DNA from: a virus
DNA: 52,459 bases
Virus record (IMG/VR): IMGVR_UViG_3300005841_000040
Coordinates: 1-52,459 of that record
Reading direction: 5' to 3' (one strand)
Below, piece after piece: positions 1 through 52,459 of this stretch (position 1 is the first letter of the stretch; every line of letters starts with the position of its first letter). The translations under genes were made by a program, and so were the position numbers. The notes under the pieces are model-generated. The model saw nothing but the letters and a program-made list of their open reading frames with translations. It was not told the origin of the DNA and did no database searches.

Positions 1-150
1 GCCGACAAGGGAGACGATCTCGTCGCAGCTGCCAACGCGATCACTGCGGGCGTGGCCATGTGTTCGGCTTGCGAGGCTCCAGCGGACGATCCGAAGGTGC
101 AAAGCTGCACGGCTCCGGAATGTCCTCATATTGGCCGGGAGGCAGCATGA
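1..150 (+). CDS. C-terminal part of a small Cys-containing protein, cut by the window edge
   Basis: Frame 1 is open from the first base to a TGA at 148-150. The readable end carries four cysteines in a CSAC ... CTAPEC arrangement, which could be a small zinc-binding knuckle. The start lies outside the window, so the family cannot be named. Codon composition resembles the early genes further right and no stop interrupts the frame. A leftward frame at 41-235 overlaps it; I prefer the rightward reading because of the cysteine pattern, but the margin is small. Confidence 0.45.
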   Translation, partial: ADKGDDLVAAANAITAGVAMCSACEAPADDPKVQSCTAPECPHIGREAA

Positions 151-212
151 AGTCTTCGTTTTCCGAAGCCGCCGCACGGGCGGCCGGGTCGCCGGCGCGG
201 CGGGGGGCCGTA

Positions 213-413
213 TCATCGACATTCCGCCGCGCCAATCGATTTATATCCGACGTGATAAGTCCTCGATTGCTTGCGCGCCGTCGAATCCGGCAAAGGCTGG
301 CGGAGATCGCGGAATATCGTGTCGATCCGCTCGTTGGTAAGCGCTTTCAGCCGCGCCCTTATCGCGCCTCGACTGGTCATCATCATAGGCAGATGGTTCA
401 TCATGTTCATCAT
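213..413 (-). CDS. Small leftward hypothetical protein
   Basis: The 66-residue product has a Met-rich start followed by a basic, probably helical segment (RGAIRARLKALTNERIDTIF). On the minus strand an AGGA ribosome-binding site sits about seven bases before the ATG at 413, which is the main reason to accept the gene. It would be read away from the early operon at 726, so the 414-725 gap could be a divergent control region. No family is recognised, and no helix-turn-helix can be claimed. Overlapping rightward frames here have weaker start signals. Confidence 0.4.
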   Translation of the reverse strand: MMNMMNHLPMMMTSRGAIRARLKALTNERIDTIFRDLRQPLPDSTARKQSRTYHVGYKSIGAAECR

Positions 414-725
414 GGTGTGTCCTGTAGTTCTGATCGTGTGGCGAGAGAGAGTGCATCAACTTTCTCATGCGGAATGAATACATGGAGTTCGTTTCGCTGT
501 CGCTGGGGGCAAGTGGTTAAACTGATTGGTAAATTGAGTCAGATTGGCACGCTGCGGCGCAATAATGCCGCCGCTCGGCCATGCTGAAGAGTTTCGCGGG
601 GGCATCATCCGCCTGACCGGCGGCCGGATCAACGCATCACATTGAGAGAATTCAGCGGCCCTTTGCCGCTTGGAATTTTGCGCCCGGCGCACGGGGCGGT
701 CGCGTGCGCGTGGAGGGAGTGAAGG
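414..725. promoter_or_regulatory. Intergenic control region before the early operon
   Basis: No convincing gene is seen here. The stretch at about 515-550 is AT-rich compared with its surroundings and holds CTGATT and AGTCAG elements that form an imperfect inverted repeat, with a TAAATT that could serve as a -10 hexamer. A strong GGAGGGAG ribosome-binding site closes the region just before the ATG at 726. Its position between a leftward small ORF and the rightward early genes fits a divergent promoter/operator, but no matching repressor gene is identified in the window. Confidence 0.3.
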
Positions 726-1148
726 ATGATGACAGACAAGAACGAATCCGGCCCGATCATCGACCAGCCGTCGCGGGCAGCTGATGGCGGATATGTTCCC
801 GGCGCCTGCAATACGTTGGCAGAATTCGTGCGCACTCTTGAGGACGGGCAGTTCGACGCTGACTGCTACGCCGCCATCCGTGACCTTGCGGCCAAGATGA
901 ACGAGCACGCTTGGCACAATGGCGGGAAGTCAAAGGGCAAGGTCACGATCACGTTGGATTTTGGGCAGGAGGGGCAGGTCTGCTCCATCAAGTCCGCATT
1001 CAAGATCACTGAGCCTGTTGATACCAGGCCGAAGTCCATCCTCTGGCAGACGGAGGATCACCGCTTCACCCGAGCCCAACCGGGCCAGCAGCAGCTCTTC
1101 GGTATCCGCGATGTCAGCGGCAGCGATCGCGGCTTCCGCGACGCCTGA
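726..1148 (+). CDS. Early hypothetical protein paired with DUF2303
   Basis: First gene of the rightward early operon, 140 residues, soluble, with no membrane segment. The start is chosen for the GGAGGGAG sequence about ten bases upstream; a second ATG one codon later is equally possible. The middle (GKVTITLDFGQEGQVCSIKS) reads as a beta-strand core. It lies 29 bases before the DUF2303 gene. Small proteins of this kind commonly sit next to DUF2303 genes in prophages, so a joint role is likely but its nature is unknown. Confidence 0.7.
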   Translation: MMTDKNESGPIIDQPSRAADGGYVPGACNTLAEFVRTLEDGQFDADCYAAIRDLAAKMNEHAWHNGGKSKGKVTITLDFGQEGQVCSIKSAFKITEPVDTRPKSILWQTEDHRFTRAQPGQQQLFGIRDVSGSDRGFRDA

Positions 1149-1177
1149 CCTCACCGATCAACCACAGGAGACAAGCA

Positions 1178-2104
1178 ATGGATGACGTTAACAAGGGGCC
1201 GATCGGCGAGGCCCGGGACTTCATCGAGACGTATTTCAAGCATGAATTGATCGAGGTGACTGAGCCTGGCACCGGAACGGCCGCGCTGTTCGAAGTCACT
1301 CCAAAAGAGGGCTACCGGGTTATCTCGGCGAATAGTTTCGATACTTATCGCGAGCGACCTATCCGGCGTAAGGGCACGGCACACCTTCTCTCGCTCGACA
1401 GTCTGATCGACCACAGCAATCGTTTCAGCGACAGCGACAGCGTTATTTTCGCGGATGATGACCGCAAGGCACCATCGATCACCACGGTGCTGGATTATCA
1501 CCGCGCCCAGGCAGACGGCGATCCGCGCTTTGGCGTTCACCGCAACCATTTCGCATTCCCGCTTTCGGACGAATGGCAGGCGTGGACGAAGTCCAACAGC
1601 GTCGTGATGAAGATGGCGCAATTCGCCGAGTTCCTCGAAGACAGGATCATCGACGTGCTGCATCTCATCCCAGGCGAGGATGACCTTTCGGAGGAGCTGA
1701 AGAAATTCATTTCAGCGGGTGGCGGGGAGGCGATCATAGCGACCCCGCAAAAGTTGTTCGAACTGGCGCGCGGCCTCAAGGTCAACGAGGAAGCGGTAGT
1801 CCAGGAGGCTGTGACGCTCGCGAGCGGCGAGGGCCAGGTCCGCTTCGAGGTTTCGCACCGAGATGGCGCTGGTGCACCGTTGAGGGTGCCAAGCCTGTTC
1901 CTGATTGCCATCCCAGTATTTCGGAACGACATGCTTTACCGGCTTGCGGCACGCCTCAGATATCGCAAGACGGCCGAGGGCATCGTTTTCTGGTACGATC
2001 TATGGCGGGCCGACCGCACATTTGATCACGCCTTCAAGGAAGCGTGCGAGCGGGTCCGGGTCGAGACTGAGCTGCCGCTCTTCTACGGTAAACCAGAAGC
2101 CTGA
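1178..2104 (+). CDS. DUF2303 family protein (YfdQ-like)
   Basis: The 308-residue protein matches DUF2303, the family of YfdQ from an E. coli cryptic prophage. Recognisable features are an N-terminal segment setting out residues to be displayed (LHRAQADGDPRFG-like), the central HRNHFAFPLSDEWQAW block, an acidic helical middle ending in a predicted coiled segment, and a C-terminal IPVFRNDMLYRLAARLRYRK strand-helix region. The biochemical role of DUF2303 is unknown; it is an early phage gene often found near replication and recombination functions. The start has a good CAGGAGA site. No frameshift or truncation is seen. Confidence 0.85.
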   Translation: MDDVNKGPIGEARDFIETYFKHELIEVTEPGTGTAALFEVTPKEGYRVISANSFDTYRERPIRRKGTAHLLSLDSLIDHSNRFSDSDSVIFADDDRKAPSITTVLDYHRAQADGDPRFGVHRNHFAFPLSDEWQAWTKSNSVVMKMAQFAEFLEDRIIDVLHLIPGEDDLSEELKKFISAGGGEAIIATPQKLFELARGLKVNEEAVVQEAVTLASGEGQVRFEVSHRDGAGAPLRVPSLFLIAIPVFRNDMLYRLAARLRYRKTAEGIVFWYDLWRADRTFDHAFKEACERVRVETELPLFYGKPEA

Positions 2105-2114
2105 GGCGAAGGCC

Positions 2115-2327
2115 ATGGCGACGCCTTCGCTCGGGCTGTTCCGGGTATCGGAGCATCAGCAGCAGCCGCGCGATAAGCGCGGCCGGTTCAAGCATGTCGA
2201 ATATAGCAGCACACGGCAGGCCATACTTCGGAAAGCGATCGAGATCCGCGAGGGATTGGGGCTTCCGCATGATGGCCGGCTGGTGCCGTTCAACATGTCG
2301 CCGGAAACACGGGATCCGATCGCATGA
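2115..2327 (+). CDS. Small basic hypothetical protein
   Basis: Seventy residues, from an ATG with GAGGCGAAGG just upstream. An in-frame open stretch extends back to 1905 inside the DUF2303 gene, but nothing there looks coding in this frame, so the shorter start is used. The product is rich in Arg, Lys and Gln (QQQPRDKRGRFKHVEY), as expected for a nucleic-acid-associated protein. Its last codons overlap the RusA gene by ATGA, indicating translational coupling to recombination functions. No family recognised. Confidence 0.65.
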   Translation: MATPSLGLFRVSEHQQQPRDKRGRFKHVEYSSTRQAILRKAIEIREGLGLPHDGRLVPFNMSPETRDPIA

Positions 2328-2809
2328 GGGCCGCGCTCGCCAAGCTGCTCATGCCGGAGCCGAAGAAGAAGCGGCAGATCCAGGAGCGTCCGGCGCCGAT
2401 GCCGATCGACGACGTCAAGGACCTGCCAGCCGGCAAGCGCGTCATTCTGCATTTCCCGCCCGTGCTGTGCAATCCGAACACGCATGTGCATGAGCGGCTG
2501 AAGGCGCGGTCCCGCAAGCAATATCGGATCGCCTGCGCCTATGATGCGCATGCGGCCGGCTTCAATTTCCGGCTGCCCGTGATCCGCGCCGCGACCGGCA
2601 AAGTCCATATGGAGGTGGCATTCTTCCGCCCGCCCGGCGTGGCGCTCGATCGCGACAATGTTATCGCCAGCTTCAAGGCCGGACAGGACGGGATCGCCGA
2701 CGCGCTCCATATCGACGATAGCCGGTTCGTCATCGACTATCAGTTCCGGCGCGAAGCCCGCTCGTGCGTCGTCGTCACGCTCCTCGAGAATAGCGAGGTG
2801 GGCGGATGA
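2324..2809 (+). CDS. rusA: RusA-like Holliday junction resolvase
   Basis: RusA family enzymes are small metal-dependent nucleases that cut Holliday junctions during phage recombination and before packaging. In this 161-residue protein the core begins around residue 40 (KRVILHFPPV), and the C-terminal half carries the family's acidic pattern: RDNVIASFKAGQDGIADALHIDD then RFVID, which supplies the aspartates that bind the catalytic metal and the lysine of the active site. The length is usual for the family (about 120-160). It overlaps genes on both sides by ATGA, so expression is tied to the early operon. Confidence 0.85.
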   Translation: MRAALAKLLMPEPKKKRQIQERPAPMPIDDVKDLPAGKRVILHFPPVLCNPNTHVHERLKARSRKQYRIACAYDAHAAGFNFRLPVIRAATGKVHMEVAFFRPPGVALDRDNVIASFKAGQDGIADALHIDDSRFVIDYQFRREARSCVVVTLLENSEVGG

Positions 2810-3102
2810 CGAAGCCTCTGACGCGTCCTCTCGACCGCCAGCGCTGGAGCCCTGAAGAGGACGCGCTGCTCGCCCGGTTGCGAGCCGAGAACGTCTCCTA
2901 CGCCGAGATCAGCAAAAAGCACCTGCCACACCGGAGCGTCCGATCGATCGAGCTCCGCGCCCTGACCGGCGTTCACGACAGCTTCGATTCGGAACGGGTC
3001 AATCGCGCTAAACTGATCGAAGCGAACCGGCAGTTCGTGAAAGCCATCAACAAGCTTCGGGAGAAGGTCGCCCGGCGTCAAGCGACGGGGGCGCGGGCAT
3101 GA
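2806..3102 (+). CDS. SANT/Myb-like DNA-binding protein
   Basis: The N-terminal half reads RWSPEEDALLARLRAENVSY followed by AEISKKHLPHRSVRSIELRA. The spaced tryptophan, EED acidic patch and RS-x-x-I-ELRA third helix fit a single Myb/SANT or GcrA-like helix-turn-helix. The C-terminal third is Arg/Lys-rich and probably a helix. At 98 residues it could be a small early regulator or a nucleoid-type protein. It is coupled to RusA upstream and to the next gene downstream by ATGA overlaps. Its target is unknown. Confidence 0.65.
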   Translation: MTKPLTRPLDRQRWSPEEDALLARLRAENVSYAEISKKHLPHRSVRSIELRALTGVHDSFDSERVNRAKLIEANRQFVKAINKLREKVARRQATGARA

Positions 3103-3482
3103 AGCACGCTGCTCCGTCGCTGGGTTGCCGCTGTCGCCACTGCAAGTCGGCGCGTCTTTGCCTATGGGACCGGCTGTCCGATCAAAAGCGTAAGTTGCTG
3201 AAGGCACTTAGCTTCGCGGTGCCGAGACATCAGTCCGATCTCCCCGGTCGAACGTCGACCCGGCAGGCTCTTCGTACACAAGGTCTCGTCCGGCTTCATT
3301 ACCTCATCTCCGAAGATGATCCGCGAAGGGCGGGCATGCCCTATTTCACGCTCAGCCAAGCCGGTGATGAGCTTGTGCGCGCCGGCACGGCCGACGACGC
3401 AAGAATGCAGCTTGCGGTGGTGAACGGGTTGAAATCGTCCGGCGCCATTCCTGCCGATTATCAGCCGAGGATGGCGCGATGA
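3099..3482 (+). CDS. Hypothetical protein with Cys cluster and winged-helix-like core
   Basis: A 127-residue protein. The N-terminus has CRCRHCKSARLC, four closely spaced cysteines able to bind zinc. Residues 30-95 (LKALSFAVPRHQSDLPGRTSTRQALRTQGLV ending in YFTLSQAGDELV, given here in parts) have the rhythm of a winged-helix domain: helix, turn, recognition-like helix, then a beta hairpin. I infer a possible DNA-binding role; no named family is certain. It overlaps its neighbours by ATGA at both ends, just before the helicase-methyltransferase. Confidence 0.55.
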   Translation: MKHAAPSLGCRCRHCKSARLCLWDRLSDQKRKLLKALSFAVPRHQSDLPGRTSTRQALRTQGLVRLHYLISEDDPRRAGMPYFTLSQAGDELVRAGTADDARMQLAVVNGLKSSGAIPADYQPRMAR

Positions 3483-6244
3483 ACGCGCTCACGCTCGAAC
3501 AGATCGGGTTCGCACAGCCCGACTACATGGACTTCCTCAAGGCCAAGATCGCAGCCGCGCCGACCTTCGGGTTCGAAGTCGATCGATCGATCCTGTCGGC
3601 ATGCCTGAAGCCGCACCAAGGTGATATCTCGGCATGGGCGGTGAAGGGCGGCCGGCGCGCGGTGTTCGCCAATTTCGGGCTCGGCAAGACGCTGATCCAG
3701 CTCGAAATCATGCGCCTGGTGCTGCAGCATGCTGGCGGCTTCGGCCTAATCGTCGCGCCGCTCAACGTGATCCTTGAAGGCACGTTCGCTGCGGACGGCG
3801 CCAAGATCGGCGTGGAGCCTGTCTTCATCAAATCGACTGCAGAGTTTTTCGAGAAAGGTGGCGCGGCAACTGGCAGCCAAGGCGCGGGTTCGTCCCCCCT
3901 GTCCACCAGCCGGCCGGAGCAAGCGGACGCTGACGCCGCACCAAACGCTCCGGCCGGCACCCCAAGATTGTTCATCACCAACTATGAGAGCGTCCGCGAC
4001 GGGAAGATCGACCTGTCGCTCTTCTCAGCCGCATCGCTCGATGAAGCCGATTGCCTGCGTGGCTTCGGTGGCACCAAGACCTTCCGCGAATTCATGCGGC
4101 TGTTCGATGGCATGCCGTACAAGTTCGTGGCTACGGCCACTCCGGCGCCTAACGAATATATCGAGCTACTCGCATACGCCGCGTTCCTCGAGGTGATGGA
4201 CGTCGGGCAGGCGAAGACGCGCTTCTTCCGGCGCAACAGCGAGAAGGCCGATCAGCTCACACTTCATCCGCATAAGGAAGCCGAGTTCTGGCATTGGGTG
4301 AACAGCTGGGCGGCGTTCGTGCAGAAGCCGTCCGATCTCGGCCACAGCGACGAAGGCTATGATCTGCCGCCAATCGAGGTGCGCTGGCACGAGGTGCCGA
4401 CGAACCATGGCGCGGCCGGTACCGACAAGGCAGGGCAGGGGCTGCTGCTGAAGGCCGAGGCGATCGGCGTGATCGAGGCCTCGCGCGAGAAGCGCGACAG
4501 CCTCGACGCTCGCATTGCGAAGATGCTGGAGCTGCGCGCCGATGATCCGGCTGCGCACCGGCTGCTGTGGCATGATCTCGAAGCCGAGCGGCTGGCGATC
4601 GAGGCTGCCATTCCTGGGGTCACCAGCGTGTGGGGATCGCAGGATCTCGAAGACCGTGCCGTCGCCTTCAAGGGCTTCTCCGACGGCAGCATAGCCGAAT
4701 TAGCCACCAAGCCTGTCATCGCGGGCGCCGGGTGCAATTTCCAGAAGCATTGCTCGTGGGCGATCTTCCTCGGCATCGGCTTCAAGTTCCGCGACTTCAT
4801 CCAGGCGATCCACCGGATACAGAGATTCCTGCAGCCGAACGTCGTCCGGATCGACCTGATCTACACCGAAGCGGAGCGGGCCGTCCGGCGCGAGCTTGAG
4901 CGCAAATGGCGCGATCACGACGCGATGACCGCCCGCATGAGCGAGATCATCCGCACCTATGGGCTTGGGCTGTCCGGTGCGGCCGGAACGCTCGAGCGGA
5001 CCATCACGGATGGCTCTGCGCCGCGCGTGGAAACGGGAAACGGCTGGCGCGTGGTCAATGACGATACGGTGCTCGAAACGAAGCGCATGGCAAGCGACAG
5101 CGTGGGACTGATCGTCACCTCGATCCCGTTCTCGACGCAGTATGAATATACGCCGAGCTACAATGATTTCGGCCATACGGACGACAACGCCCATTTCTTC
5201 GCACAGCTCGATTATCTGACGCCGGAGCTGCTGCGCGTGCTGAAGCCCGGCCGGACCGCGGCGATCCATGTGAAGGATCGCATCCGACCTGGCGGGATGG
5301 ACGGGCTCGGCTTCCAGACCGTCGATCCATTCCACGCGCAGTGCATCGACCATTACCGGGCCCACGGCTTCGCCTATCTCGGGATGATCACGGTCGCAAC
5401 CGATGTCGTCCGCGAGAACAATCAGACCTATCGGCTCGGCTGGACCGAGCAATGCAAGGATGGCTCGCGCCAGGGCGTCGGCATGCCGGAATATGTGCTG
5501 CTGTTTCGCAAGCCACAGACCGATCGCTCACGCGGCTACGCCGATGATCCGGTCATCAAGAGCAAGCCCGATCTCGCCTGGGAAGTGACCGACGATCCCG
5601 ATGGCGGCCAATGGGCAGACGGCCCCTGGGATGAGGATATCGCGGATCTGCGCTCGGCCAGCATCGTGCCTGGTACCGGCTATTCGCGCGCCCGGTGGCA
5701 GATCGATGCGGCCGGCTTCTGGCGCTCGAGCGGAGATCGGACGCTCTCGATCGAGGATTTCGCGGGGCTTCCGCATGACGCGATCTACCGGCTGTTCCGC
5801 GGGCACAATTGGGCGACGGTCTACGACTATGAGGCGCACGTCCGCATCTCGGAAGAGATGGAGGCGAAGCACGCGCTGCCAACCGATTTCGCCTTGTTGC
5901 CGGCAACAAGTTGGCACCCGGATATATGGACCGATGTCGCCCGGATGCGGACCCTCAACGGCGAGCAGGCTGCGAAGGGGCGCGAGATGCATTTGTGCCC
6001 CTTGCAGTTCGATATCGTCGACCGGCTGATCGTCCAGCGCTCCATGCCCGGCGAGCTGGTCTACGACCCGTTCGGCGGCCTGATGACCGTCCCGCTGCGC
6101 GCCGTGAAGCTCGGCCGCACCGGCGCGGCCGCCGAACTCAACCCCGGCTATTTCGACGATGGCGTCCGGCACCTGCGCGCGCACGACGCGGCGCAGGCGA
6201 CGCCAAGCCTTTTCGATCTTCTCGACATGGAGGAAGCGGCGTGA
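3479..6244 (+). CDS. SNF2-type helicase fused to a beta-class DNA methyltransferase
   Basis: A 921-residue fusion of an ATP-driven DNA translocase and a DNA amino-methyltransferase. The N-terminal half has Walker A at 66-71 (FGLGKT), DEAD at 188-191, TATPAPN at 219-225, and a motif VI-like QAIHRIQRF at 442-450. The C-terminal half has a motif IV variant TSIPF at 547-551 instead of the usual (D/N/S)PP(Y/F), then KPGRTAAIHVKDR, and motif I late at VYDPFGG (861-867) with the acidic E886. Motif IV before motif I marks the beta class (N6-adenine or N4-cytosine). No nuclease domain is visible. Residues about 125-160 are a low-complexity Gly/Ser/Ala/Pro insert in the helicase. A translocating self-methylation enzyme is the simplest reading; substrate specificity is unknown. 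Confidence 0.88.
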   Translation: MNALTLEQIGFAQPDYMDFLKAKIAAAPTFGFEVDRSILSACLKPHQGDISAWAVKGGRRAVFANFGLGKTLIQLEIMRLVLQHAGGFGLIVAPLNVILEGTFAADGAKIGVEPVFIKSTAEFFEKGGAATGSQGAGSSPLSTSRPEQADADAAPNAPAGTPRLFITNYESVRDGKIDLSLFSAASLDEADCLRGFGGTKTFREFMRLFDGMPYKFVATATPAPNEYIELLAYAAFLEVMDVGQAKTRFFRRNSEKADQLTLHPHKEAEFWHWVNSWAAFVQKPSDLGHSDEGYDLPPIEVRWHEVPTNHGAAGTDKAGQGLLLKAEAIGVIEASREKRDSLDARIAKMLELRADDPAAHRLLWHDLEAERLAIEAAIPGVTSVWGSQDLEDRAVAFKGFSDGSIAELATKPVIAGAGCNFQKHCSWAIFLGIGFKFRDFIQAIHRIQRFLQPNVVRIDLIYTEAERAVRRELERKWRDHDAMTARMSEIIRTYGLGLSGAAGTLERTITDGSAPRVETGNGWRVVNDDTVLETKRMASDSVGLIVTSIPFSTQYEYTPSYNDFGHTDDNAHFFAQLDYLTPELLRVLKPGRTAAIHVKDRIRPGGMDGLGFQTVDPFHAQCIDHYRAHGFAYLGMITVATDVVRENNQTYRLGWTEQCKDGSRQGVGMPEYVLLFRKPQTDRSRGYADDPVIKSKPDLAWEVTDDPDGGQWADGPWDEDIADLRSASIVPGTGYSRARWQIDAAGFWRSSGDRTLSIEDFAGLPHDAIYRLFRGHNWATVYDYEAHVRISEEMEAKHALPTDFALLPATSWHPDIWTDVARMRTLNGEQAAKGREMHLCPLQFDIVDRLIVQRSMPGELVYDPFGGLMTVPLRAVKLGRTGAAAELNPGYFDDGVRHLRAHDAAQATPSLFDLLDMEEAA

Positions 6245-6930
6245 ACGCTCTTGCACGGGTTAAGGATGAAGTTGCCGGCCACATGGATCAGATCCTCGCG
6301 CTCTGGAAGCCGGGCCGGAAGATAACCGTGATCGTCCGGTCGCCCGGCGTGCCAGATCAAGACTTCATGATGACCAATGACGAAATGCCGGAAGTGCGCG
6401 AACTTATCAGGCGTCGCGAGCTCGGCGAAGTGGATCTCGACTGCCATAAACTAGATAACCCGCGCCAGGTCTTCTTCTACGAGCAAGACTTCTATGTGCT
6501 GTCGAACTTCTCAGCATTCTCATTGGTTTGGGGCGGATATCGCTTCGATACTTCCGAGCATGCATATCATTGGGAGAAGTTCAGGCTCGACGACACGATA
6601 GGCGGACAAGAACGCGATATTCAGCGCCGCATTCGCATAGCTCCGTCGGCGCATGACGCGTTCAAGTTCGCTGAGCTCAATCGCGAATTTCGTCGCCCGG
6701 ATTGGGATCAGATCAAGGTCGACGTGATGCGCCACATTCTGTGGAGCAAGGTCGAACAGCATGAATATGTCCGTCGCAAGCTGCTGGCCACCGGCGACCG
6801 CCAACTTATCGAGGATAGCTGGCGCGACGATTTCTGGGGTTGGGGTCAGAACCGCGACGGTCAGAACATGCTCGGCAAGCTCTGGATGGAGATCCGCGAG
6901 GAGCTTCGCGGCAACGGGGCTGCGGCGTGA
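6241..6930 (+). CDS. NADAR domain protein (YbiA/RibA-like N-glycosidase family)
   Basis: GTG start overlapping the helicase-methyltransferase stop as GTGA; 229 residues. Residues 78-222 form a NADAR domain: FYVLSNFS (84-91), SEHAYHWEKF (105-114), and the C-terminal FWGWGQN-RDGQNMLGKLW block (198-214). NADAR proteins cleave N-glycosidic bonds; members include YbiA, which acts on riboflavin intermediates, and others reported to remove ADP-ribose from guanosine, reversing DarT-type toxins. The first 75 residues (including KITVIVRSPG) are an extension not seen in the shortest members. In an early phage operon beside DNA methyltransferases, removal of ADP-ribose from phage DNA is an attractive role, but this is inference. 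Confidence 0.88.
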   Translation: MNALARVKDEVAGHMDQILALWKPGRKITVIVRSPGVPDQDFMMTNDEMPEVRELIRRRELGEVDLDCHKLDNPRQVFFYEQDFYVLSNFSAFSLVWGGYRFDTSEHAYHWEKFRLDDTIGGQERDIQRRIRIAPSAHDAFKFAELNREFRRPDWDQIKVDVMRHILWSKVEQHEYVRRKLLATGDRQLIEDSWRDDFWGWGQNRDGQNMLGKLWMEIREELRGNGAAA

Positions 6931-7190
6931 TCGCGAAACGCTACCGCTTCGAGGCCATTGACGAGCGCGCGATCCGGCTGCGGCTGGTCTCGGGCGATCT
7001 GTTCAACACCTACAAGCAGGCTGGCGATGGCGGTTGGCTGGTCGCCCTCGGCCCGATCTCGGATTGCGCCCGCATCGCCGACGCGCCGGATGAGGCATCG
7101 GCCGATCAACTCGTGGATTTGCTGCGCCTGTGCTCGAAACAACCCCGTGTTCTCCGTCCACCTGAGGACGATCAGGAACCTCGGGGATGA
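6927..7190 (+). CDS. Small hypothetical early protein
   Basis: GTG start in a GTGA overlap with the NADAR gene, giving 87 residues; a longer in-frame start at 6840 would run inside NADAR and is rejected. The product is acidic, with a hydrophobic core reading RYRFEAIDERAIRLRLVSG and GGWLVALGPISDCARIADA, compatible with a small alpha/beta fold. It ends overlapping the ParB-like gene by ATGA. No family recognised; the coupling on both sides supports that it is real. Confidence 0.6.
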   Translation: MIAKRYRFEAIDERAIRLRLVSGDLFNTYKQAGDGGWLVALGPISDCARIADAPDEASADQLVDLLRLCSKQPRVLRPPEDDQEPRG

Positions 7191-8005
7191 GCCGCCCCGC
7201 CACCACGCGACTGAAGATCAACGCGCCGACCGGCACGCCGCCGACGCTGGAGTGGATCGTGCCCGGCGATCTCTCGATCGACGAAGGCTATCAGCGCTCG
7301 CTGGCGACTGAAAACGCGCAGGCGTTGATCCGGCGCATCGCGATGTTCTGGGACTGGAGCCTCTGCCAGCCAATCAACGTCGCCCGGCGCGAGAACGGCG
7401 CGCTCATGGTCGTGGATGGCCAGCACCGTCATGCCGCGGCCATGCTGCGTGGCGACATCAAGGCGCTCCCGTGCGTGATCGCCGACTATCCTGATCGCGC
7501 GGCCGAGGCGGCGGCCTTCGTTGCGCTGAACAAGGAACGGCGCCCGCTGAACTCAGTCGACGTCTGGCGCGCGCAGCTCGCGGCCGGCGATGATCTGGCA
7601 AGGCAGGTGGCCGACCTGATCGCATCGGCCGGGCTGGCAGTCGCGACGCACAGCAACTATGTCGCGTGGAAGCCGCGCACCCTCTATTGCGTGCCGGGCA
7701 TCATCAAGGCCTATCGCGCGCACGGCCGGCACGTAACTTCGGCGGCATTGGTGGCGCTGGCGGAAGCGTTCGACGGCAAGGTGCTGCGCTATGCCGGCCA
7801 ATTGCTGCGTGCGCTTGTCCGCTTCTACGCGATTTCGCTTCAAGATGATGGGTTCGATCCCGATGCCTTCCTCGAACGGCTGGCGCTGAACAGTCAGGAA
7901 CAGTGGATGCGCGCGGCAGCCGAACGCATGGCGCGGCAAGGCGGCACGCAGATGGCGGCGCTGACCGATTGCTTCATCCACGCAACTCAACAGCAAGCCG
8001 CATGA
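7187..8005 (+). CDS. ParB/sulfiredoxin-fold domain protein
   Basis: A 272-residue protein with a ParB-like nuclease fold at the N-terminus: LSIDEGYQRSL opens the domain and VVDGQHRHAAAML is the diagnostic motif (the GxHRxxA box that in true ParB binds CTP). The rest is helical and lacks the clear ParB helix-turn-helix/dimer arrangement, so chromosome partitioning is unlikely. Phage ParB-like proteins of this size occur with methyltransferases and may be nucleases or NTP-binding regulators. It is coupled by ATGA to the GP88-like gene. The molecular role cannot be told from sequence. Confidence 0.75.
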   Translation: MSRPATTRLKINAPTGTPPTLEWIVPGDLSIDEGYQRSLATENAQALIRRIAMFWDWSLCQPINVARRENGALMVVDGQHRHAAAMLRGDIKALPCVIADYPDRAAEAAAFVALNKERRPLNSVDVWRAQLAAGDDLARQVADLIASAGLAVATHSNYVAWKPRTLYCVPGIIKAYRAHGRHVTSAALVALAEAFDGKVLRYAGQLLRALVRFYAISLQDDGFDPDAFLERLALNSQEQWMRAAAERMARQGGTQMAALTDCFIHATQQQAA

Positions 8006-8800: not shown

Positions 8801-10906
8801 ATGGCAACAAACAAGCGTCCCCGCCTGACCGCCGGCCGCCCGGATGGCGGCAATCACAAGCAACCCGTGCTCCGACTGGTCGAGCACTCGCCGAATGTCG
8901 AGCGTGACTATTCCGTCGGCATCATAGTGGACAATTTCGCCGGCGGTGGCGGTGCATCGACAGGCATCGAAGCCGCGGCGGGGCGCGATGTCGACGTGGC
9001 GATCAACCACGATGCCGAAGCGGTAGCGATGCATGCTGCGAACCATCCTCGCACCCGGCATCATTGCCAGAGCATTTGGAGCGTGGATCCGCTCGACGCG
9101 GTGACCATCGACGGCGTCCAGCAACCGGTCTGGCTCGCCTGGTTCTCGCCGGACTGCACTCATCATTCGAATGCCCGTGGCGGCAAACCGCGCGAGAAGG
9201 GCATCCGCGATCTCGCATGGGTGGTCATCCACTGGATCAAGCGTCTCGGGCCCAAGCTGCGCCCGGCCATCATCAAGGTCGAGAATGTCGAGGAGTTCCT
9301 GACATGGGGACCGCTCGACGAAGAGGGCAGGCGCATCCCCGAGCGCAATGGTGAGATCTTTCGCCAGTGGATCGGGGAGATGCGCAAGGCCGGATACAAG
9401 GTCGAATGGCGGGTCATCCGCGCCTGCGACGTCGGGACGCCGACGATCCGAAAGCGGCTGTGCCTGATCGCGCGCTGTGATGGCAAGCCGATCATGTGGC
9501 CGGTACCGACGCACGGGCCCGGTCGCGCGAAGCCATACCGTACCGCCGCTGAATGCATCGACTGGTCGATACCATGCCCGTCGATCTTTCTCACGGCCGA
9601 GGAAGGCCGCGCGATCGGCGTCAAGCGGCCGCTCGCCGAAGCGACCATGCGCCGCATTGCGCGTGGCGTCCAGCGCTACGTGATCGACGCCGCGCAGCCC
9701 TTCATCGTCAGCCTTACGCATCATGGCGCGGATCGCGTCGAATCGCTCGAGGATCCGATGATGACGGTCACCGGGGCGCACAGGGGAGAAAAGGCGCTCA
9801 TCGTGCCAACCATCGTCGGTTGTGGCGGCCGGGCAGGGCAATCGCGCCCGCGCAGCGGTGATGAGCCTTTCGCCACCACGACGGCGAAGGCGGATGCCTG
9901 TCTGGTCGCCACCGTGCTGTCATACGCGCAGCAGGGCGGCGCCAATCGTAGCGTCGAGGATCCGATGCACACGGTGACTGCCTCGCCAAAGGATCAGAAC
10001 ACGCTGATCGCGGCGCACATCACGAAATTTCACACGGGCTCTACCGGCCAGTCGCTGGACGATCCCCTTGCGACGGTTACGGCAAACAGCTTCGAGAAGC
10101 GTCCCGGCGGCGCGACGCCGCTCGGCATCGTGGCCGCGACAATGGTGCAGACAGGCTATGGGGAGCGCCAAGGCCAGGTACCGCGCTCGCTCGATATCAA
10201 GGAGCCGCTTGGCACGGTCGTGGCCGGTGGCGGCAAGCATGCGCTCGTTTCGGCCTTCATGCAGAAGTTCGCCAGCGGCAACGCACCGTCCGGTGCCGAT
10301 GAACCCGCCCAAACCGTCGAAACGCATGAAAAACATGCCCTTACCGTCGCTCATCTAGCGCAGTTCAACACCAACCCAGATGGCACCGTGAATGCCGGAC
10401 ATGATATTCGTGAGCCGCTGAGCACAATCTCGACAAAAGGGCCGCATCAAGCAGTCGTCGCGGCGCACCTGCTCAATCTCAAGGGCTCGGAGCGAAGGGA
10501 TGCCCCGGTCGATGCGCCCGGACCCGCGATCACGGCGGGCGGCTATCACGTCGCGGAGGTCCGAGCGTTCCTGCTCAAATATTACGGCACAGATCAAGAT
10601 GCGCGCCTGGAAGAGCCTCTCCACACAGTGACGTCCAAAGATCGCTTCGGCCTCGTGATCGTCCATGGCGAGGCGTATCAGATCGTCGATATCGGGATGC
10701 GCATGCTGACGCCGCGTGAACTGTTCGCGGCGCAGGGCTTCCCAGCCGATTATATCATCGATCCGCCCGGCCCGAACGGAAAGCCGCTCACCAAGACGGC
10801 GCAGATCCGCATGTGCGGCAACAGCGTGTGTCCGCCGCTGGCGGAAGCACTGGTGCGGGCGAATATCGGGCGCGGAGACGATCTCGAAGAGGCCAGCGCA
10901 GCATGA
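8801..10906 (+). CDS. C5-cytosine DNA methyltransferase with repeat-rich target domain
   Basis: A 701-residue DNA (cytosine-5) methyltransferase. Motif I is VDNFAGGGGAS (43-53), the catalytic cysteine lies in SPDCTHHS (C119), ENV is at 161-163, motif VIII is around IRKRLCLIA (216-224), and the C-terminal motifs IX/X read MLTPRELFAAQGFP and MCGNSVCPPLAEALV. Typical phage C5 enzymes have about 350-450 residues; the excess is a block of about nine imperfect repeats at residues 297-622 in the position of the target-recognition domain. The motif IV variant (SPDC rather than PPCQ) is known from phage enzymes. It probably methylates phage DNA to evade host restriction. Confidence 0.92.
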   Translation: MATNKRPRLTAGRPDGGNHKQPVLRLVEHSPNVERDYSVGIIVDNFAGGGGASTGIEAAAGRDVDVAINHDAEAVAMHAANHPRTRHHCQSIWSVDPLDAVTIDGVQQPVWLAWFSPDCTHHSNARGGKPREKGIRDLAWVVIHWIKRLGPKLRPAIIKVENVEEFLTWGPLDEEGRRIPERNGEIFRQWIGEMRKAGYKVEWRVIRACDVGTPTIRKRLCLIARCDGKPIMWPVPTHGPGRAKPYRTAAECIDWSIPCPSIFLTAEEGRAIGVKRPLAEATMRRIARGVQRYVIDAAQPFIVSLTHHGADRVESLEDPMMTVTGAHRGEKALIVPTIVGCGGRAGQSRPRSGDEPFATTTAKADACLVATVLSYAQQGGANRSVEDPMHTVTASPKDQNTLIAAHITKFHTGSTGQSLDDPLATVTANSFEKRPGGATPLGIVAATMVQTGYGERQGQVPRSLDIKEPLGTVVAGGGKHALVSAFMQKFASGNAPSGADEPAQTVETHEKHALTVAHLAQFNTNPDGTVNAGHDIREPLSTISTKGPHQAVVAAHLLNLKGSERRDAPVDAPGPAITAGGYHVAEVRAFLLKYYGTDQDARLEEPLHTVTSKDRFGLVIVHGEAYQIVDIGMRMLTPRELFAAQGFPADYIIDPPGPNGKPLTKTAQIRMCGNSVCPPLAEALVRANIGRGDDLEEASAA
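9689..10666 (+). repeat. About nine tandem protein repeats in the C5 methyltransferase
   Basis: Each unit of roughly 32-42 residues has a conserved core of the form (E/D)-(E/D)-P-hydrophobic-x-T-V-T followed by a small linker and a hydrophobic strand ending in (L/V)(V/I)AAH or similar. Clear copies include LEDPMMTVT, VEDPMHTVT, LDDPLATVT, IKEPLGTVV, IREPLSTIS and LEEPLHTVT. The repeats diverge enough at the DNA level that recent slippage is unlikely; they look like an old, selected array. Confidence 0.8.
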
Positions 10907-52225: not shown

Positions 52226-52459
52226 TGCGGTAAAGTTGCGGTAAAAAGCCCGCAAATATATGGTTTGTTCTCTCGCCGTTCCGGCGCGCGTTCTAACGAA
52301 ATCGACGCTTTTCTGCGCTTTTGAACTGCCAGCCTTGTATTGACATCGCAGGGGTCGCAAGTTCAATCCTTGCCGCGCCCACCATTTAACATCATGATTT
52401 CCTTGCACGTTTTGCTCCCATGATGCTGCGGACATTGCTGCCCTCTGCGGTAAAGCTGC
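52226..52459. other. Phage attachment site with arm-type repeats (attP-like)
   Basis: The core is a tRNA 3' part (52340-52384). Left of it, TGCGGTAAAG (52226-52235) and TGCGGTAAAA (52237-52246) form a tandem pair 11 bases apart. Right of it TGCGGTAAAG (52446-52455) is followed at the same 11-base step by TGC, where the window ends. Paired arm sites on both sides are the mark of attP rather than attL/attR. No integrase is inside the window. Confidence 0.7.
52340..52384 (+). tRNA. 3' fragment of tRNA-Val (GAC), att core
   Basis: TTGACAT is an anticodon loop (GAC), CGCAG the 3' anticodon stem, GGGTC the variable loop, GCAAG-TTCAATC-CTTGC the T arm, then CGCGCCC, A and CCA. The 5' side (TTGTA) does not pair with CGCAG, so the tRNA is truncated at its anticodon loop. 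This is the identity block used for integration into the 3' end of a host tRNA gene. Confidence 0.88.

Follow-up and report, generated by a model that had tools for sequence, protein, structure and literature searches.

A probable attP region with paired arm repeats, cut just inside the integrase gene at the end of a sphingomonad phage contig

The right end of the 52,459-bp virus record analyzed here (the whole stretch, hereafter the window), which encodes terminase, portal, prohead protease and tail genes, almost certainly holds, in full, the attP region of a tailed temperate phage of sphingomonads that was not integrated; the contig breaks off a short way into the integrase gene (int). From left to right, two copies of TGCGGTAAA (52226 and 52237) are followed after 94 bp by TTGACAT at 52340, which opens a partial tRNA-Val(GAC) ending in CCA at 52383, then by a third copy of TGCGGTAAA at 52446 and a partial copy at 52457 (Table 1). 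Exact TGCGGTAAA occurs only these three times in the 52,459 bp, always on the + strand, against 0.19 copies expected; none of 100 shuffles held three or more copies, and a scan of the whole window found TGCGGTAAA to be the sole exact 9-mer repeated with an 11-base step. The last three bases, TGC (52457-52459), open the second right-hand copy, the step again being 11. A reading made earlier from the letters alone (the sequence-only reading) had described this layout of a left pair and, on the right, one copy plus the start of another at the same step; the counts, and the related contig described below, agree with it.

Table 1. Features predicted at the right end of the window
Feature	Position	Strand	Basis
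P-arm pair (2x TGCGGTAAA, step 11; predicted integrase arm-binding sites)	52226..52245	+	repeat counts; present in relatives
Predicted core sites C / C' (CCTTGTA / CGCAGGG) around 7-bp overlap	52333..52353	+	inferred from position and symmetry; host identity begins at loop
TTGACAT, tRNA-Val(GAC) anticodon loop; predicted 7-bp strand-exchange overlap	52340..52346	+	attB/attP identity begins here in host loci
Common core, tRNA-Val(GAC) 3' part from anticodon loop to CCA	52340..52383	+	host matches; intact tRNA beside int in integrated relatives
P'-arm pair, TGCGGTAAA plus first 3 bases of second copy; inside int CDS	52446..52459	+	completed in L128 164-183
Integrase gene 3' end, ...SFTAEGSNVRSIMGAKRARKS, stop TGA; remainder past window	52392..52459	-	aligns with C-terminus of P0001 from L128
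IHF-like site AATCATGATGTTA, weak	52387..52399	-	8/9 consensus positions

The right flank can be followed in IMG/VR contig L128, which is 98.3% identical to window positions 52283-52459 (177 bp) and continues beyond the window edge. There it completes the second right-hand copy, as TGCGGTAAAACTGCGGTAAG, inside the 3' end of a minus-strand tyrosine-recombinase gene of 394 aa (P0001); the third and fourth repeats that the sequence-only reading had proposed looking for are thus both present. After int, L128 carries ThyX-like and DUF3310-like genes, named from their sequence rather than by a family search, and other phage genes. The last 66 bases of the window, translated on the minus strand, give SFTAEGSNVRSIMGAKRARKS and a stop, and the L128 counterpart is SFTAEDSNVRSIMGAKHARKS and a stop. 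The continuation in L128 and the integrase C-terminus within the window therefore identify the right flank as phage DNA that already contains part of the integrase gene. The integrase had been placed just beyond the right edge: L128 confirms that it is at the edge, but it is not only beyond it, its C-terminus being already in the window. The body of the protein is known from this close relative, and L128 and the window are separate assemblies. The contig end could instead be the attR of an integrated prophage, with host chromosome to the right of CCA and a right-hand repeat arisen by chance; the left side does resemble the attR of relatives, and CCATTTAA is also found after tRNA-Val in a few hosts. 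However, the right flank leads, at 98% identity to L128, into int and phage genes, and it encodes both the integrase C-terminus and a step-11 pair at the expected distance. The refuting case named beforehand, in which host genes and no integrase lie to the right of 52459, is likewise contradicted by L128. Given L128 and the C-terminus of int, we reject the attR reading, which has next to no probability left and stands refuted unless L128 is a chimera. Contigs L123, L124 and L126 were also set aside, as they have the 19-mer in common by pattern only and no tRNA core was recognized adjoining it.

The core of the predicted attP matches the 3' part of a host tRNA gene. The 29-mer TCGCAGGGGTCGCAAGTTCAATCCTTGCC has exact matches in at least 120 stretches of bacterial genomes, and nearly all of the matches listed are from Sphingomonadales. 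In almost all host matches, identity to the window reaches six bases to the left of TCGCAGGGGTCGCAAGTTCAATCCTTGCC, to TTGACAT and no further, which bears out the earlier placement of the start of the tRNA part at the anticodon loop (52340-52346); on the other side, identity to sphingomonad tRNA-Val(GAC) covers the CCA, and in the best hosts it goes a few bases past it. The search of host genomes for a tRNA-Val(GAC) with this 3' end, likewise proposed beforehand, has its listed matches almost wholly in Sphingomonadales. The acceptor end of the window core is GCGCCCACCA, a minority allele among the matched hosts; because this allele goes with a 5' GGGCGC, it points to a Sphingomonas carrying that tRNA allele as the likely host. 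ARAGORN found no complete tRNA within the window, as expected because the window holds the tRNA 3' part alone. Rfam returned only chance matches for the attachment region, folding of the core as RNA gave an ordinary stability (z -0.57), and blastn of the attachment region against deposited phages gave zero matches. Comparison with hosts and integrated relatives shows that the core is identical to the host attB and that the tRNA is restored upon integration. Phages with tRNA-dependent lysogeny combine a short core, by which the tRNA is not restored, with a phage-encoded tRNA (PMC10865867); here the core reaches CCA and the window contains no tRNA gene.

We then compared the two-sided arrangement in the window with integrated elements. 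The pattern YGCGGTAANNNYGCGGTAA was searched in 299 Sphingomonadaceae genomes and gave 10 matches in 6 genomes against 4 for the reversed pattern, each of these alone in its genome. All ten matches lie at tRNA junctions (tRNA-Val, -Gly, -Ala): five are attL, with an intact tRNA followed by the pair, and five are attR, with the pair followed by a 3' half tRNA. No match among the ten is two-sided. Ten more integrated elements at tRNA-Val, which between them use several arm sequences, likewise have single-sided attachment sets with the pair on the phage side, whereas two-sided pairs were found in viral contigs L130, L131, L137, L139 and L141 and in the isolated phage Mae-JY04. Arm sites are thus distributed as in the lambda system, on both sides in attP and on one side each in attL and attR. 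The expectation of the sequence-only reading that integrated prophage ends bear arm sites on one side only held at all junctions examined. With pairs on both sides in the window and one per junction in integrated relatives, the window end is therefore an attP on unintegrated DNA, and the proposal of a non-integrated source holds as well; this DNA may have been that of a virion, an excised circle or a replicating form. The only real alternative, in our judgment highly improbable, is a tandem double lysogen with an attP at the junction between its two prophages. In lambda-type biology an attP-like middle junction can arise when attP recombines with attL or attR, and this would in principle yield what is seen here; against this, such lysogens are rare, and the closest full relative (G001, below) is closed or terminally redundant. 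In many sphingomonad genomes (L013, L023, L037, L056, L058, L059, L087, L089, L091 and L101), a half tRNA-Val has a step-11 pair of varying sequence before it, and we read these places as attR sites of related prophages that belong to different arm classes. An attL-like junction at a tRNA-Gly with a TGCGGTAA pair (L157 1501), with no integrase in the stretch fetched, is probably a decayed prophage remnant.

The integrase itself was examined through P0001. Neither P0001 nor the sibling integrase of L125 matched Pfam PF00589 (Phage_integrase) at the gathering score, and the L125 protein matched the PHROG_1 integrase profile weakly (0.0012); the PF00589 miss is a limit of profile sensitivity and not a defining trait. 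Residues R220, K255, R308, H333 and Y342 are invariant across 15 aligned homologues and supply the catalytic set R, K, (H/K)xxR, H/W and Y, although box II in these homologues opens with K or another residue in place of H. An AlphaFold2 model of P0001 (pLDDT 78, pTM 0.58), in which domain packing is uncertain and residues 334-345, near the catalytic tyrosine, fall below pLDDT 50, begins with an N-terminal domain of sheet plus helix, after which come helical and catalytic parts. The best Foldseek matches to this model were lambda Int structures 1z1b and 1z1g (E about 6e-4, probability 1.0), so that model and search together place P0001 in the tyrosine-recombinase fold. At the N-terminus, strands at 11-42 and a helix at 48-63 are predicted, and the arm-binding domains 3ju0 and 3rmp were matched weakly. 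As modeled, the integrase is a divergent tyrosine recombinase of the lambda type. Viral contigs yielded 13 homologues, and the loci read have arm pairs at the int 3' end; among deposited proteins, the relatives from phages Mae-JY04 and RXM carry the annotation tyrosine-type recombinase.

The spacing of the sites is conserved on the left. The distance from the end of the second P repeat to the crossover loop is 93-97 bp in relatives, and exactly the window's 94 bp in homologues L130, L131, L137 and L139; the distance from P' to the loop varies from 77 to 112 bp. In 12 of 12 viral homologue loci, the P' copies found sit inside int, upstream of its stop codon. Other step-11 arm sequences occur in relatives (TCCGGTG, TTCGGCGC, TTGGGTGA or TCGGGTGA, and TGGACCGC in RXM). 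On an integrase tree of 41 rows, built from the whole protein with its N-terminal domain included, and with arm classes assigned by eye from the listed repeats and rows lacking a clear pair left unlabeled, three changes, as few as are possible, account for the four main arm classes and six for the tRNA targets; on these terms the tree therefore speaks for congruence with the integrase lineage, not for a code. The residue at position 21 varies with arm class (R, D or L), a correspondence confounded with descent. It is an even call whether these integrases form a large alphaproteobacterial radiation in which the four arm sites shift with clade and the tRNA target shifts separately (arm classes GCGGTA, CCGGTG, TCGGCG, GGGTGA and TGGACCGC; tRNA targets Val, Gly, Ala, Pro, Thr and Arg), with N-terminal residues, position 21 among them, as a candidate arm-recognition code. 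Our searches of an open-access library turned up no account covering the whole of this integrase family together with its arm classes. The pairs might alternatively serve as operators or as sites for an excisionase (RDF), and not as arm sites of the integrase; Apl of phage 186 provides a precedent for RDF sites that are direct repeats one helical turn apart (PMC7498355). We consider this improbable, as the pairs flank the core on both sides at a fixed distance, track the integrase clade with the minimum number of changes, and have their P' member inside int in viral homologues.

Taking the pairs as integrase arm sites, we propose that the integrase probably uses its N-terminal domain to bind the arm pairs (TGCGGTAA, step 11) to the left and right and its other domains to bind the core, and that strands would be exchanged in the anticodon loop of the host tRNA-Val(GAC), with a presumed overlap of 7 bp. 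Integration would restore the host tRNA at attL, and bending could be provided by IHF or an RDF. A scan for IHF sites gave a single 8/9 site (0.08 expected in 310 bp), which is weak evidence. Lambda Int and its attP, the best fold match, are alike in having two DNA specificities (arm and core), arms on both sides and int beside attP; they differ in that identity is about 11% and the target of the window phage is a tRNA anticodon loop. In mycobacteriophages of cluster K (CrimD, Pixie), attP has two pairs of about 11-bp arm sites around a tmRNA/tRNA core that adjoins a tyrosine integrase, and the arm consensus differs between related integrases (PMC3203893). In CrimD, however, the pairs are mutually inverted and attP is 5' of int, whereas in the window all four repeats are direct and P' lies inside the int 3' end. 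Citromicrobium phage vB_CbaS-RXM (OL963731) was published as integrating at tRNA-Val-GAC (PMC12486242); it resembles the window phage in its homologous integrase (31% identity), a core from the loop TTGACAT to CCA and step-11 pairs (TGGACCGC) on both sides, beside int, but has another arm sequence, a 104-kb genome and a distant integrase. Because the paired arms of cluster K and the integration of RXM at tRNA-Val-GAC are already described, the attachment site is known in kind. Microcystis phage Mae-JY04 (PP395637) has an integrase 46.5% identical and TGCGGTAA-type pairs to either side of a tRNA 3' core, but a different tRNA core and a cyanobacterium as its named host; its integrase and arm pairs (L197) fall in a mainly sphingomonad family despite that host.

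These results indicate that the end of a metagenomic contig can, without the integrase, reveal an intact attP and with it that the DNA was unintegrated and which host group is likely. In the genomes searched, the arm-pair pattern occurs only at tRNA attachment junctions, and it can therefore serve as a marker for prophages whose integrase is missed by Pfam. The family also supplies natural pairs in which one specificity is altered and the other kept, which suits domain-swap tests of arm-site recognition.

The nearest relative, G001 (IMGVR_UViG_3300009177_000007; 62,661 bp), matches window positions 1-8000 at 98%, and relative to it about 9 kb is missing between the two ends of the window. Its termini are identical over 123 bp (L143 1-123 and L144 12540-12662), which marks the contig as an apparent closed circle or terminally redundant molecule. 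G001 (L122 9787-10271) keeps the left arm pair in the same place, and it has the core as far as TTGACATCGCAG, where the anticodon stem ends; beyond this it switches to a different integrase (404 aa, with a PF00589 match) with its own repeats GGTTAGACAA, and then to L128-like genes. By this comparison, G001 appears to be an int-attP module swap in which the old arm pair was left as an orphan. A 92-bp query for the host target of the replacement integrase gave only chance-level matches. The left part of the phage genome also carries two large methylase genes, at window positions 3479-6244 and 8801-10906, the first of N6/N4 type (921 aa) and the second of C5-cytosine type (701 aa).
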